Below the pieces are notes generated by a model. The model did no database searches. It saw nothing but the letters and a program-made list of their open reading frames with translations, and had not been told where the DNA came from. A program made the translations under genes and the position numbers. A stretch of 64,000 nt of DNA, from assembly GCF_038397775.1 (NCBI RefSeq), contig NZ_CP151650.1, positions 3,100,001 to 3,164,000 on the forward strand, written 5' to 3'. Positions within the stretch are counted from its first letter, which is position 1. Each line of letters opens with the position of its first letter. Origin of the DNA: Pseudomonas sp. RC10. Lineage in GTDB: Bacteria > Pseudomonadota > Gammaproteobacteria > Pseudomonadales > Pseudomonadaceae. Positions 39,304-45,483 of the stretch are shown one piece after another.

Positions 39304-39855
39304 GGACAGGTTCCTCGTCAGCATTGAGTCAGGCCCGGCGCTGACGGTTGAGCAGCGAACGGGCATCTGCGGCATTGAAAGCGTCAAGTCACCCACGATA
39401 AACAATGAGCGAACCGAGCATTCATTCGAATAACTGCATGCACTGTTGAAGATTTCTCGCCAATCCCCCGATGTACTCGTTGCGTTTGGCATCGACGTCT
39501 TGCGAAGAAAGCGTTATCACTGGTGGGAGCAGCATCACCCCAGAGTTAATGACCTGAGGCAATGGGGTTGGTTGCGGATAATTGGCAAGGATTTTAGACA
39601 GGCGAGAACCTCGAAAGGTCAGCAGTCGAAAGACGATCATTTGATGTGGGTCGATCTGACCAGCGTGCGCGGAAAATCTTTCATTTCAACGGTTGACTGC
39701 CGATATAGAACTGAGACTCAGGCAACTGTCACGTGAAATGTCGTGAAATCGCGTTTTTTTCGTCGTTTATAGGCAGCTGGAACGAATATGGCGCTTGCAT
39801 CCCTCAGTCAGACCCCATGAAGATAGCTCAGTCCCACGCTGGCAATGGAGCGCCT
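39304..39855. other. Intergenic region between the oxidoreductase operon and the GGDEF-EAL gene
   Basis: About 550 bases with lower GC than the flanks around 39400-39780. A 72-codon minus-strand frame (39422-39640) and a 96-codon plus-strand frame (39446-39736) exist, but neither has a ribosome site or a sequence I recognise. The divergent promoters of both flanking genes must lie here. It could hold a decayed gene; I cannot name it. Confidence 0.35.
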
Positions 39856-42738
39856 ATGAATTCCCACGTCACGAATCCCGTTCAGCGCTCGCCGGCGACC
39901 GAGGAAACAGCGTGTCTGGCAGATGATGGTTCGGAAAATGCGACATCGATGATCGACGAAAACTCTCTCGAAGCAGTGCTGAAAGCTGCGACCAGCGCGA
40001 CCCCCGGATTGAGCTGGGCCGCCTACCGTGCCAACCGGCACATGCATTTGTTGGGGCAGGGCGATGCCGCGACCGAGTGGCCGTCACTCATTCCCCGTGA
40101 AGGCTTCGACGCTTTCTGTCGTGATCATGGATTACACCGCTGGGTGACCGGGCATGGCGAAAGCCCGCTGGGCTGGTTACTGACCCCCGAACGCGAGTCG
40201 AGCAATCCGTTTTTACTGGCCCTGGCAAGCAAACTGGGACTGCGGTTGCAGACCGATGCTCTGACCCGGGCCCAAGCCACTCAACGGGTGCTGTACGAAA
40301 TCACCTATCTGGCCAGTTCGACCCGTGACCGCCCGGCGTTTCTGCAAGGCGTGCACCGGCAATTGTCGACCCTGATCGACGCCGAGAACTTCTATCTGGC
40401 GCTGTACGAAGGCCACAGCGGCAAGATCACCTATCCCTATTACATCGACATCACCGATGTCGACGCGCTGGAAGCCGAGACCCAAGAGTTTCTCGATCCG
40501 GAACGGCTGTCCATGACCGGTTATGTGCTGACCACCGAGCAGCCGTTGTTTGTCGACGCGGCTGGAATCGAACGCGCCCAGTCTCAGGAGCGGTTTTATT
40601 GCGTGGGGCATCGGCCCGAATTCTGGATGGGGGCGCCGCTGAAGAACGCTTCCGACGACGTGTTCGGCATGCTGGCGATGCAAGTCTACGACCTGTCACG
40701 GGTCTACAGCGTCGAGGATCAAGAGCTGTTTCTGGTGGTCGCGCGTCACGTGGCGATGGCGCTGGACCGCATCCTGCATCGGGCGCACCTGGAAGAAACC
40801 GTGGTGCGCCGCACGCTGGAGCTGTCGCGGCTCAACGACGCCCTGCGTAACGAAGTGGCCGACCGCGAGCGGGCCGAGCATTTGCAGAGCGCGCTGTTCC
40901 AGATCACTGAACTGTCCAGCCAGCCGGGGGACATGACCGACCTGTTCAAGAGCCTGCACGGGATTGTCGGCGAACTGCTGTTTGCCCTGAACTTCTACAT
41001 TGCGCTGTACGACGACGCCACGGACGAGGTGACCTTTCCGTATTACGTCGACGAACGTTTGGTGCGCCGCCCCGATCCACGTCGCGGTGAGCGCGGTTTT
41101 ACCGAGTACGTGATTCGTCAGCGCCGCCCATGCCTGATCGACAGTGCCGAAGCGCGGCGTCTGGAAGGCACCGGCGAAATCACCATCCAAAACGAAATCA
41201 ACCGTTCCTGTTCCTGGCTGGGGATTCCGCTGTTCGACGGCGACACCGTGCGCGGCGTGCTGGCGGTGCAGAGTTATTCGCCCCATGTCAGTTATTCGCT
41301 GCGTGATCAGGATTTGCTGACGTTCGTCTCGCGGCACATCGACACGGCGCTGTCCCGTCGTAGCGCGGCGGAAGCCATTCACACGGCCAACGTACGGCTG
41401 GAAGCCCGGGTGCAGGACCGCACCCGAGAGCTGGACTACGCCAACGCCAAGTTGCAGCACGAAAACGCTCACGACTCCCTGACCGGGTTGCCTAATCGCA
41501 GCCACTTGCAGCACCGTCTGCAAGGCGCGTGGCAGGATTTTTGCGCTCACGGTCAGGACCTCGCGGTTATGTTCATCGACCTGGATCGCTTCAAAATGGT
41601 CAACGACAGCCTTGGACATCATTCGGGGGATCTGTTGCTGATTCAAGCGGCTGACCGACTGCGCAGTTGCATGCGCGAGAGTGACCTGCTGGCGCGCTTG
41701 GGTGGCGATGAGTTTGCGGTACTGGCCTACTCCGCGCCGCCTGACGTCACGGTGGCGATTGCCGAGCGCATCCTGCTGGCATTCGATGTGCCGTTCTACA
41801 TCGACGGACATGCGGTGTTTTCGTCGTGCAGCATAGGGGTGGTCGGCGCTGATCTGCAATTCCACAAAGAGCCGGCCGACCTGTTGCGAGATGCCGACAC
41901 GGCGATGTACCGGGTCAAGAACGCCGGGCGCGACAGTTACGCCGTGTTCAACCAGGAAGTGCGGCGCGAGGTGTCCGACCAGATGGAGCAAGAGGGTGCG
42001 TTGCGTAACGCCCTCAAGCGCACTGACGAATTGCTGCCTTATTTTCAGCCGATCATCGACGTTGCCACGGGCAAAATTCTGGCGTTGGAAGCGCTCATCC
42101 GCTGGCGTCAGGCCGATGGCCGAGTGATCGCGCCGGGGCTGTTCCTGCCCGCGCTGGAAGGCCTGCGCCTGATTGGACGGCTGGACTATTACATGCTGCA
42201 ACAGGTGGTGGCGATGTTGGCGCAGCCCAGTCATGCCCATTGGCCGACCGTGCACGTCAACTGTTCGAGCTACAGCATCAGCCGACCGGAATTCGCTGGC
42301 GAAGTGCTGGGACTGCTCGCGCAACATGGCGTGGCGCCGTCGCGCATCTGTCTGGAATTGACCGAAGGGGCGCTGGTGGCCGAACCGGAACTGGCGCGTC
42401 AGGCCATGAAGCACTTGGCGGACAACGGCGTCTCCACCGTGCTCGACGACTTCGGCGCCGGGTTCTCGTCGCTCAGTTACGTGCACCAGTACCATTTCAG
42501 CGGCCTGAAGATCGACAAATCCTTCACCCTCGAACTGACCACCAGCTCCCGCAGCCGCGCCATCGTCCGCGCCATCGTGCGCATGGCCGAATCGCTGGGG
42601 CTGACGGTGGTCGCCGAGGGCGTAGAAGACGCCGATACGTTGCAATTGCTGCGTGAAATGGGGGCAGGGCAGGCGCAGGGGTATTACTTCTCGATGCCAG
42701 TGCCACAGGAGAAACTGGATTTGAGTGAGTTGCTCTGA
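39856..42738 (+). CDS. GAF-GAF-GGDEF-EAL cyclic di-GMP signalling protein
   Basis: A 960-residue cytoplasmic protein; TGGAGCGCCT directly before the ATG at 39856 decides the start, though upstream in-frame ATGs exist. Two GAF domains lie at about 140-310 and 345-510, joined by a coiled helix; then GGDEF (about 535-700) with an intact GGDEF at 616-620 and RESD inhibitory site, and EAL (about 720-960) with Glu745 in EALIRW, ELTEGAL, DDFGAGFSSL, LKIDKSF and EGVED. Both synthesis and breakdown motifs look usable, so net activity cannot be told. No membrane segment is seen. Confidence 0.94.
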   Translation: MNSHVTNPVQRSPATEETACLADDGSENATSMIDENSLEAVLKAATSATPGLSWAAYRANRHMHLLGQGDAATEWPSLIPREGFDAFCRDHGLHRWVTGHGESPLGWLLTPERESSNPFLLALASKLGLRLQTDALTRAQATQRVLYEITYLASSTRDRPAFLQGVHRQLSTLIDAENFYLALYEGHSGKITYPYYIDITDVDALEAETQEFLDPERLSMTGYVLTTEQPLFVDAAGIERAQSQERFYCVGHRPEFWMGAPLKNASDDVFGMLAMQVYDLSRVYSVEDQELFLVVARHVAMALDRILHRAHLEETVVRRTLELSRLNDALRNEVADRERAEHLQSALFQITELSSQPGDMTDLFKSLHGIVGELLFALNFYIALYDDATDEVTFPYYVDERLVRRPDPRRGERGFTEYVIRQRRPCLIDSAEARRLEGTGEITIQNEINRSCSWLGIPLFDGDTVRGVLAVQSYSPHVSYSLRDQDLLTFVSRHIDTALSRRSAAEAIHTANVRLEARVQDRTRELDYANAKLQHENAHDSLTGLPNRSHLQHRLQGAWQDFCAHGQDLAVMFIDLDRFKMVNDSLGHHSGDLLLIQAADRLRSCMRESDLLARLGGDEFAVLAYSAPPDVTVAIAERILLAFDVPFYIDGHAVFSSCSIGVVGADLQFHKEPADLLRDADTAMYRVKNAGRDSYAVFNQEVRREVSDQMEQEGALRNALKRTDELLPYFQPIIDVATGKILALEALIRWRQADGRVIAPGLFLPALEGLRLIGRLDYYMLQQVVAMLAQPSHAHWPTVHVNCSSYSISRPEFAGEVLGLLAQHGVAPSRICLELTEGALVAEPELARQAMKHLADNGVSTVLDDFGAGFSSLSYVHQYHFSGLKIDKSFTLELTTSSRSRAIVRAIVRMAESLGLTVVAEGVEDADTLQLLREMGAGQAQGYYFSMPVPQEKLDLSELL

Positions 42739-42775
42739 CCCATCGGTTCATGACCCCTGCGGCCGCTCAGTGGGC

Positions 42776-43512
42776 GGCCATGACTCGCGGCCATCGGCAA
42801 CACGCACAGAGGATTGTGTTTGGACGAATAACGTGAACTCGGCGTGCAACCGTGTGGGAGCAGCCGGAGGGACGACGGCCGCGAAGTGGTGGGTCAGGCA
42901 ATTGATCGGCAACTGACCCACCGCTGTCGCTGCCGTCGTGCCTCCGGCGTCTCCCACGAGACTTGCGGTGTCCAGGGATTGTGCTGACGACACAAATCAC
43001 CTGTGGCAGTCCGGCGTGGCGGCCATGACTCGCAGCCGTCGCACCCGGACACGATCGTGTTTGGACGAATAACGCGAACACGGCGCGCAACCGTGTGGGA
43101 GCAGCCGGAGGGACGACGGCCGCGAAGCGGTGGGTCAGGCAATTGATCGGCAACTGACCCACCGCTGTCGCTGCCGTCGTGCCTCCGGCGTCTCCCACGA
43201 GATTTGCGGTGTCCAGGGATTGTGCTGACGACACAAATCCCCTGTGGCGTGTCGGCCGTGGCGTCCATGACTCGCAGCCGTGGGCAACCCGGACGCGATT
43301 GTGTTTGAACGAAGAGCGCGAGCGCGGCGTGAAACCTTGTGGGAGCAGCCGGAGGGACGACGGCCGCGAAGCGGTGGGTCAGGCAATTGATTTGGTAACT
43401 GAACCACCGGCGTCGCTGCCGTCGTCCCTCCGGCGTCTCCTACCAGAATTGCGGTGTCGAAGGATTGTGCTGACGACACACAGACCCTGCAGCAGTCCGG
43501 CTTGCCGGCGGT
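42776..43512. repeat. Three tandem copies of a ~245-bp repeat with ~104-bp palindromic cores
   Basis: Units begin at about 42776, 43021 and 43263 and are close to identical over most of their length. Each has a core running from GTGGGAGCAGCCGGAGG to CCTCCGGCGTCTCCCAC (42854-42957, 43095-43198, 43339-43443) whose halves are inverted copies, followed by a shared GATTGTGCTGACGACACA tail. The third copy is the most diverged. The core resembles a pair of REP elements; the array resembles a BIME amplified with its spacer. Minus-strand frames through it are by-products of the repeat. Confidence 0.9.
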
Positions 43513-43614
43513 GGCGCTGTAATATCGCCACCTTGGCAAGCCATGCAGATACGACGATGGCACACAGTCAACCCAGGCTTTCCAGCCCGATACGCCCTTG
43601 CTAGACTCGCGCCC

Positions 43615-43974
43615 ATGTCCGAATCCGATCCCGATAACCGTCCAGCCTTTCCCGACTACGCCTTCTGCCCGGTGATCACCGCGCTGGAGGTGATCGGCGA
43701 GCGCTGGGTGATCCTCATTCTGCGCGACCTGCTGCGTAACCCCTCGCGACGTTTTCAGGATTTGCAGGACTCGCTCAAGGGGTGCGCCCCGAGCACGCTG
43801 TCCGCCCGGCTCAAGGCCCTGGAAGCCAACGGTCTGATCGAGCGTCGTCTGTACGAGCAGCATCCGCCGCGGCTCGAATACCTGCTGACCGCCAAGGGAC
43901 GTGAAGTCGGGCCCGTGGTGGCCTCCCTGCGTGACTGGGGCCTGCGTTTGCAGGACCAACAGCCACCGCGCTGA
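43615..43974 (+). CDS. HxlR-family winged-helix regulator
   Basis: A 119-residue MarR-like regulator of the HxlR family. The N-terminal cysteine in FCPVITALEVIGERW is the family hallmark, sometimes used to sense electrophiles or oxidants. The helix-turn-helix and wing run through FQDLQDSLKGCAPSTLSARLKALEANGLIERR. The start MSESDPDNRP is favoured over an upstream ATG because HxlR proteins begin shortly before the cysteine. No obvious target gene is divergent; the unknown sigma-54 gene follows. Confidence 0.92.
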   Translation: MSESDPDNRPAFPDYAFCPVITALEVIGERWVILILRDLLRNPSRRFQDLQDSLKGCAPSTLSARLKALEANGLIERRLYEQHPPRLEYLLTAKGREVGPVVASLRDWGLRLQDQQPPR

Positions 43975-44097
43975 GCGGCCAGAGCGGCGAAGGTCTGCCG
44001 TTCCCGGCAAGGCCGCGCCGACATTGCCGCTTCCTTCGAAACCTTCTATCCCTTGCACCCCGCATAGGGCGGGCCTCTCAGCATATGTATCAGCATG

Positions 44098-44113
44098 TGG
44101 CACTGCTTTTGCT
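44098..44113 (+). promoter_or_regulatory. Sigma-54 (RpoN) promoter in front of the 201-residue unknown gene
   Basis: TGGCAC-N5-TTGCT matches the -24/-12 consensus exactly, with GG and GC twelve bases apart (44099 and 44111). The expected start point near 44123 leaves a leader of about 30 bases before the ATG at 44155. Confidence 0.75.
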
Positions 44114-44154
44114 GCTGTCGAGGGTGCATCGATAACCTGATAAGGAGGTGAAAG

Positions 44155-44760
44155 ATGATCATTGATAACAGTACGATCCAACACTTCGTGTCGAAGGCCG
44201 TGGCTCACACGCACTACGACACGACAGACAAGGATGCGTACACCGCTGCGACGGCCAGCGCTTCCGCGCCGATTGCCGCACTCGCGGGCAGTACCGACAG
44301 CTCCACCCAAAGCAGCGCGGATCAGGGCTACAACGAGTCTTTCGCCAAAATGATGGTGAACCTCAAAGCCTCCCTGGCCAACGCCACGTCCAAGGTGTCG
44401 GATGAAGACAAAGCGGCTGCGGCAGCTGCGTTCGCGGCCGCCGGTGACAAACAGATCGCGTCGACGGACAGCGTGAGCAAAACCGTCGATACCGAAATGG
44501 CGGCGGTCGATAACAGCAGCACCAGTAGCAGTTCTTCGGCCAAGGCCGATTTTCTGGCGTACATGAACCAGACCGATGCCGAGAAGGTGCGTCAGCAGTT
44601 GACCGGCGTAAGCAAGGAACAGTACGACGCCATGACGCCGGAGCAGCAAGCGGCCGTGGACAAGAAAGTGGCTGACCTGCAGAAACAGAAAACCGAGCTG
44701 CAAACCGCTGAGCAAGAGGTCAAGGCCAAGATCGCCATGGCGAAGGCGGAAATGGCCTGA
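44155..44760 (+). CDS. Unrecognised Ala/Ser-rich 201-residue protein, sigma-54 promoter
   Basis: I do not recognise this protein. The start is certain: TAAGGAGGTG, a full match to the 16S anti-Shine-Dalgarno, ends four bases before the ATG. The N-terminal half is rich in Ala, Ser, Thr and Asp with almost no Arg; the middle has a Ser run (STSSSSSAK, about 120-129); the C-terminal 60 residues (TPEQQAAVDKKVADLQKQKTELQ) look like a coiled coil. There is no signal peptide, membrane helix or cysteine. A perfect sigma-54 promoter precedes it and a strong terminator follows, so it is a single-gene transcript. Type III-secreted or surface-related protein is a guess. Confidence 0.85.
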   Translation: MIIDNSTIQHFVSKAVAHTHYDTTDKDAYTAATASASAPIAALAGSTDSSTQSSADQGYNESFAKMMVNLKASLANATSKVSDEDKAAAAAAFAAAGDKQIASTDSVSKTVDTEMAAVDNSSTSSSSSAKADFLAYMNQTDAEKVRQQLTGVSKEQYDAMTPEQQAAVDKKVADLQKQKTELQTAEQEVKAKIAMAKAEMA

Positions 44761-44796
44761 GTCCTGGGTGTTGGCGGTGTGGGGGATGGATGAGGA

Positions 44797-44832
44797 AGGG
44801 GCAGCGGTGATCACCGGCTGCCCCTTTTTTTG
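44797..44832 (+). terminator. Rho-independent terminator after the 201-residue gene
   Basis: AGGGGCAGC and GCTGCCCCT form a nine-base stem, with GGTGATCACC folding inside, followed by T7. Confidence 0.85.
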
Positions 44833-44857
44833 GATGGAATATGTGTCCCGTCAGGGC

Positions 44858-45262
44858 TTAAAGCCGCGTCAGCTTTTCCAGTGCAGCGTCTGCGAGAAAT
44901 GACGAGCGGCTCTTGATGTTGTGGTCACGCACATATCGGTCAATGCGTTGGATCACGAAGCCGGGCAGCGTGACATTGACCTTTTCCGTTTTGCCTAGAT
45001 AAGGCGTGATATCGATCTCCAGCATCCCCCAGCCCATTCCCGCATAGTCGGGATGATCATGATGCCGTTTTGCGGAGGTCGGCATGGGTACGGTATGTCC
45101 GCCGGTCACCTGCTCTTCAAGCATGATGTGAGCGATTTCGACAGCGGCGTTATAGGCCTCTTCGAACGTGTCACCTGCGGTCACCGCCCCGCAAATATCC
45201 GGGATGTGGATGCCGATGGCGGTGGTTTCGTCGCCCCATTCGATGGCGATGGGATATTGCAT
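44858..45262 (-). CDS. hicB: HicB antitoxin
   Basis: A 134-residue antitoxin starting MQYPIAIEWGDETTA, the usual HicB beginning; the longer frame overlaps hicA and is ignored. The N-terminal half is the degenerate RNase H fold that caps HicA (GIHIPDICGAVTAGDTFEEAYNNA-like), and the C-terminal half is a ribbon-helix-helix DNA-binding domain (KVNVTLPGFVIQRIDRYV). It follows hicA by 20 bases. The pair should repress its own promoter. Confidence 0.93.
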   Translation of the reverse strand: MQYPIAIEWGDETTAIGIHIPDICGAVTAGDTFEEAYNAAVEIAHIMLEEQVTGGHTVPMPTSAKRHHDHPDYAGMGWGMLEIDITPYLGKTEKVNVTLPGFVIQRIDRYVRDHNIKSRSSFLADAALEKLTRL

Positions 45263-45282
45263 GATGTGCTCCTGCGAAAGAA

Positions 45283-45483
45283 TCAGGCCTGTTCTGATGG
45301 GCTGAGCCATGCGCGCCTCCTGATGCTTTTTACGGTTCCCAAGGGTAAGTCTTTTTTCGGGTGGGGCACCGCGATGGAATAAGGGCTGCGCGGGTGGGTA
45401 ACGACGTGATGACTTCCGCGACTCCGCTGGAACATCCATCCCGCCGCTTCAAGCTCTGCTATCAGTTCTCTGCTTTTCACCAC
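45283..45483 (-). CDS. hicA: HicA toxin, mRNA interferase
   Basis: A 66-residue double-stranded-RNA-binding-fold toxin that cleaves mRNA on the ribosome. The catalytic histidine lies in RSRGSHHVVTHP, and AVPHPKKDLPLGTVKSIRR is the conserved C-terminal part. The GTG at 45483 (or the next GTG at 45480) is chosen because AAAGGG lies six to nine bases upstream; the ATG at 45489 has no room for it. Toxin before antitoxin is the HicAB order. The module lies between the unknown sigma-54 gene and the mannitol operon. Confidence 0.92.
   Translation of the reverse strand: MVKSRELIAELEAAGWMFQRSRGSHHVVTHPRSPYSIAVPHPKKDLPLGTVKSIRRRAWLSPSEQA

Follow-up and report, generated by a model that had tools for sequence, protein, structure and literature searches.

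A lone gene family of Pseudomonas as a probable member of the class III flagellar regulon

The gene at 44155-44760 of the window (the whole 64,000-nucleotide stretch of Pseudomonas sp. RC10 DNA that was analysed) encodes a 201-amino-acid protein and, taken as a whole, is best explained as a member of the class III (FleR/sigma-54) flagellar regulon with an accessory role, a reading to which we give a probability of about three in four. Features expected of a class III gene were found: a sigma-54 box lies close upstream, and the enhancer is common with that of flgB, both in its own genome and in P. aeruginosa PA7. The class III regulon was already known, as was PA1967 as a FleR-dependent gene. 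The genus-wide family as a member of the regulon, the shared enhancer and the gene setting appear to be new; no description of these was found in the papers that the literature searches listed. A first-pass annotation of this DNA listed flagellar, nitrogen, hrp and biofilm genes as the programmes driven by RpoN. The list was right, and the flagellar programme is picked out by an enhancer that the annotation did not mention.

The gene and its sigma-54 promoter

The features of the gene and its setting, all on the + strand, are as follows.

39733-42738, +: GAF-GAF-GGDEF-EAL gene, ahead of the family gene in the same orientation, setting rather than part of the gene
43995-44010, +: inverted repeat CTGCCG-N4-CGGCAA, a candidate FleR enhancer that departs from TTGCCG-N4-CGGCAA at one position
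44024-44029, +: TTGCCG, an additional half-site of the enhancer, 74 bp before the box
44098-44112, +: sigma-54 promoter TGGCAC-N5-TTGC, conserved in related loci
44142-44151, +: Shine-Dalgarno AAGGAGGTGA, from sequence
44155-44760, +: gene of the 201-aa family protein, from the ORF and the family profile
44335-44364, +: conserved block 1, residues 61-70, from alignments; predicted helix in models
44539-44754, +: conserved C-terminal helical region, residues 129-200, from alignments and models
44798-44831, +: intrinsic terminator, hairpin and seven T, from fold z -4.76

The ORF starts with ATG and includes the stop codon. The -24/-12 box, TGGCACTGCTTTTGC, is an exact match and lies 43 nt from the start codon; Shine-Dalgarno sites comparable to that of the window gene precede many of the relatives' genes. 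Downstream, a GC-rich hairpin (44798-44824) is followed by seven T, and the 47-nt stretch 44790-44836 folds with -26.4 kcal/mol, a value equalled by none of 200 shuffles. The sigma-54 promoter, the full anti-SD match and the gene's own terminator, all claimed from first sight of the sequence, were thus each borne out. The gene looks real because its closest fetched orthologue is 94% identical with a dN/dS of ~0.16, and judged from this ratio it looks to be under purifying selection. A profile search showed one family copy in its own genome.

The box alone is modest evidence and it is conservation that makes the case. The window holds one box against 0.18 expected, with at least one present in 15 of 100 shuffles, and genome-wide the pattern occurs 13 times and its reversed form 7 times. 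Of the first 30 related loci, 28 carry a box that scores 8 of 10 or higher, and in 26 of these 28 the start codon follows at a distance of 33-46 nt. Forty further loci were then chosen from protein matches, their promoters unseen beforehand; 36 reach a box score of 8 or higher (Markov null 11%) and 27 a score of 9 or higher (Markov null 1.8%), though the relatives share descent and neither these counts nor those of the half-sites below are independent events. The first-pass annotation had proposed looking for the -24/-12 element upstream of orthologues, and in most loci of these two sets it is kept.

A box scoring at least 8 is missing in four of the 40 further loci and in two of the first 30 (L022 and L027, in genomes G063 and G078). 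The latter two are closely alike. Both keep TTGCCG/CGGCAA-like DNA upstream, but in neither does the box have the usual GC at -12, and the promoter there may be altered or weaker. L022 also adjoins a CheW-receiver gene, the one seen in L207.

The enhancer and its likely activator

Upstream of the box, TTGCCG/CGGCAA half-sites fall on a ~10-bp grid, mostly from -60 to -115. An exact CGGCAA or TTGCCG is present upstream in 27 of 28 related loci, and within 2 of 28 coding controls. Among the further 40 loci, all 36 that are boxed carry an exact half-site (Markov null for at least one, 9%), and 31 of the 40 carry two or more (Markov null 0.4%). In the own genome, the flgB upstream region has three exact half-sites and that of flgE has one; no clear enhancer was seen at flgF or at the FliK-like gene. 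The own fliE, fliL and fleS promoters, which belong to the FleQ-dependent class II, have no exact half-site from -150 to -36, with one farther out at fliL, at -159.

The combined pattern (TTGCCG-N4-CGGCAA, 70-100 bp, TGGCAY-N5-TTGC) was scanned across the genome_contigs collection of 84,980 species genomes and marked at least 119 stretches. Among the 119 matches listed, the downstream gene is flgF in 45, a family member in 27, flgB in 17 and flagellin in two, the other 28 being without assignment by motif or profile. The pattern was derived from the family itself, so the family matches are expected; the finding is the flagellar ones, 64 of the 119 listed, which include Shewanella and sphingomonads. 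The 66 listed matches with a Pseudomonas title comprise 38 flgF, 25 family and three other genes. Together these data show that the enhancer and box are conserved and are common to the rod genes. The Shewanella and sphingomonad loci (L074, L107 and L132, for example) have TTGCCG-N4-CGGCAA and the sigma-54 layout before flgF or flgB; the occurrence of the layout so far outside Pseudomonas suggests a long-conserved recognition by activators of the FleR/FlrC/FlbD type.

The combined pattern occurs at one extra place in the own genome (L282, C1:3768315-3768403, - strand), where no gene is evident; the reversed control in this genome also gives one match. L146 is likewise without an evident flagellar or family gene downstream, and in both the pattern may be chance. 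In L120, from P. reidholzensis, a promoter of class III type precedes what by eye appears to be the beginning of a truncated family gene, followed by a HipA-like frame; this genome has no match to the family profile.

P. aeruginosa PA7, which is not in the profile, has a single profile match, with E 2.1e-20. CGGCAA-N60-90-TGGCAY-N5-TTGC is found at two places only in the whole PA7 genome, upstream of flgB and of the family member, and the reversed control gives none; PA7 flgF has the same layout with a 95-bp gap. The genes that follow AzoR2 in PA7 are an 88-aa ORF, an ABC-F gene, ORFs of 111 aa and 123 aa, and then the family gene. AzoR2 is PA1962 (excerpt of PMC4051601). Counted from AzoR2, the PA7 family gene would be PA1967, an inference from gene order. 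Orthology of the window gene with PA1967 in turn rests on single copy, profile and promoter. Gene order is not conserved, the PA7 neighbours differing from those in the window.

Published work, consulted in excerpt, connects PA1967 to the same activator. PA1967 and PA4326 have been named as FleR-dependent genes of unknown function, and PA1967 fell about threefold in a pilR mutant, which was attributed to the fleSR route (PMC6058289). Its expression falls along with that of flagellar genes under a lipoprotein-transport inhibitor (PMC7685553). In P. aeruginosa PA14, FleS/FleR with sigma-54 drives flgB (PMC7064773). The work on PA1967 is independent support, since FleR had been named from sequence beforehand. 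PA7 has one profile match only, and PA4326 is probably a different protein, distinct from the family.

The excerpts of the literature contained no statement of FleR's DNA site. The TTGCCG/CGGCAA enhancer is most likely that site, a putative assignment, and FleR is very probably the protein that binds it, because the same elements precede flgB and flgF and because PA1967 is reported to be FleR-dependent.

The protein and its family

No Pfam or NCBIfam model reaches its cut-off on the window protein, and no FlgD, FliK or axial-protein domain was found in 33 members (NCBIfam, and the best 25 of 32 Pfam families listed). The first-pass annotation had called the product a protein without known domain and of no recognised family. 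That call stands, no domain match having been found, with one correction: the P. aeruginosa member is by gene order PA1967, already reported as FleR-dependent and of unknown function. The predicted absence of a membrane helix also holds, the top 19-residue Kyte-Doolittle mean being 0.92.

Two blocks are conserved. The first is E-(A/S)-F-A-(K/R)-x-x-V-x-L at residues 61-70, within a predicted helix, as seen in two alignments and in models. The second is the C-terminal helical region, residues 129-200, in which F133, Y136, M137, R146, G151 and P162 are invariant or nearly so. Outside these blocks the sequence varies fast, and the N-terminal part has low model confidence, from which it is probably disordered. 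Cysteine is absent from all 30 family members compared (none in 5548 residues), whereas among 86 predicted neighbour ORFs, 150-600 aa long, only 4 lack it. The difference is suggestive only, given the common ancestry of the members and the chance that some neighbour ORFs are not real genes. The flagellar export gate motif, FxxxPhi, fits 20 of 33 alignment rows including the window protein, and 13 do not fit. Every one of 30 members has two to four residues of the set A, V, I, L, M, F and G at positions 2-6, a feature that is not specific.

A family profile was built from the 33-row alignment (A1). The profile search across Pseudomonas that the first-pass annotation had suggested matched 191 of 298 sampled genomes, so the gene is not an orphan; 107 of the 298 have no match. 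Outside the genus, none of 184 other genomes of the class matched, the class-wide sample of 185 giving the own genome only. Run on 57 relatives, the profile gave 24 matches, all 24 within Pseudomonas. With a single sequence as the query, 85 of 149 Pseudomonas genomes gave a match. A search with the C-terminal region of the relative L026 returned 114 proteins, for which the organism names displayed were Pseudomonas or Ectopseudomonas, bar one metagenome label. Two of the family matches listed in the genome scan are titled otherwise, Pantoea sp. Ap-967 (L133) and a Paucimonas MAG (L102). The Pantoea title is probably wrong because the contig coordinates of L133 equal those of G134, a genome placed in the window's genus.

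Of 12 named genomes, seven lack the family. Six of the seven have flgF behind the enhancer and box layout: P. luteola, P. insulae, P. guryensis, P. cuatrocienegasensis, P. marincola and P. thermotolerans. The family protein does not belong to the flagellar core, and many species can do without it, because it is absent from 107 of 298 sampled genomes and from seven of the 12 named ones.

Possible role and relation to known systems

In the proposed mechanism, FleQ and sigma-54 would first make the MS ring, the C ring, the export gate and FleS/FleR. We infer that FleR activation follows completion of the export gate. Activated FleR would then bind the TTGCCG/CGGCAA enhancer ~60-120 bp upstream and drive sigma-54 polymerase at the -24/-12 box, and the family protein, which would have a transcript to itself, would be made alongside the rod and hook proteins. 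The product is probably an accessory, non-essential flagellar factor of the rod-hook stage. In the likeliest form of this role, it might engage the apparatus for flagellar export and could be a substrate of the early type, a tentative suggestion made because it has a Cys-free, probably disordered N-terminal part rich in Ala, Ser and Thr, a conserved F-centred helix and a helical C-terminal region. The export idea is weak, with the gate motif in only 20 of 33 rows, and membership among the early substrates is not claimed.

The family gene is located outside the flagellar cluster, and its neighbours offer a different possibility. In six of 19 compared loci (L193 and L197-L201) the family gene is preceded, on its own strand, by a GGDEF-EAL gene, identified by motif and, for L193 and the window, by Pfam. 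It is ~1.4 kb from the family gene in the window and 622 bp in L193. The window's wider spacing may be a later insertion because the L193 gap is so short. Three tandem 241-bp units (88% matches) occupy 42773-43509, between the GGDEF-EAL gene and an HxlR-type regulator at 43543-43974. In L208, a locus of P. putida type, a different, divergent PAS-GGDEF gene was identified by Pfam, and a divergent look-alike was read from sequence in 11 of 28 named loci. L207 has a gene with CheW and receiver domains upstream. On the other side of the window gene, directly past the terminator, is a HicB-like antitoxin gene (44858-45439, - strand; PF15919, E 1.3e-38).

From these neighbours the product could be a cytoplasmic adaptor that couples a flagellar assembly checkpoint to c-di-GMP or chemotaxis through the adjoining GGDEF/EAL protein. 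This is unlikely: the GGDEF-EAL, PAS-GGDEF and CheW-receiver genes cover only part of the compared loci, and the clade neighbours share descent and perhaps reflect two or three events. The neighbourhood is a lead for a c-di-GMP link, not proof. The same low-confidence, Cys-free N-terminal part and the variability outside the two blocks would suit a regulator or effector that is produced at the rod-hook step, leaves the cell by the flagellar export channel and has no role in assembly, yet the fit to the gate motif is partial and no known effector domain was found in Pfam or NCBIfam, which leaves this reading improbable. A combination of these ideas, which we consider speculative and improbable too, is that the family protein is made only after completion of the export gate, is itself exported or is sensed by the export apparatus, and reports rod-hook progress to the c-di-GMP enzymes that neighbour its gene in separate clades. 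If true, flagellar assembly would be linked to the choice between swimming and sticking in a way specific to Pseudomonas. Control by another enhancer-binding protein (PilR, NtrC, CbrB or a Sfa protein), with the flagellar likeness incidental, would accommodate the background of the combined pattern in the own genome and the pilR effect on PA1967, but it is very unlikely given that the effect was attributed to fleSR (PMC6058289), that the PA7 pattern marks flgB and the family gene only, and that more than half of the listed scan matches precede flagellar genes, also in Shewanella and sphingomonads.

A class III accessory gene, the preferred reading, would mean that about two thirds of sampled Pseudomonas genomes (191 of 298) carry a co-regulated gene that fits none of the family models searched, although few bacterial machines have been studied as well as the flagellum. 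The readable enhancer, TTGCCG-N4-CGGCAA with its half-sites, would make it possible to propose FleR targets from sequence. The protein would be tied to one assembly step, hence its role is directly testable.

The nearest known system is PA1967 itself. The PA7 gene is like the window gene in its match to the family profile, its box and its enhancer layout, but it encodes ~160 aa with low identity to the window protein. FlgD follows early export rules that call for a gate motif and for small hydrophobic residues at the N-terminus (excerpt of PMC8983047). The family loosely resembles FlgD and FliK in its small hydrophobic N-terminal residues, Ala/Ser-rich spacer and F-centred motif, and differs in having neither a FlgD nor a FliK domain and in the partial occurrence of FxxxPhi. 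FlbD/ftr of Caulobacter and FlrC of Vibrio are counterpart activators of rod-hook genes (excerpts of PMC3930126 and PMC7064773). The DNA layout also precedes flgB in sphingomonads and flgF in Shewanella, whereas the search of 184 other genomes of the class found no family member. Finally, flgB and flgF encode rod proteins inside the flagellar cluster, whereas the family gene stands alone and its product has no recognisable relation to theirs; their class III promoters and that of the family gene are nonetheless alike in the -24/-12 box, in the half-sites and in the similar distances between them.
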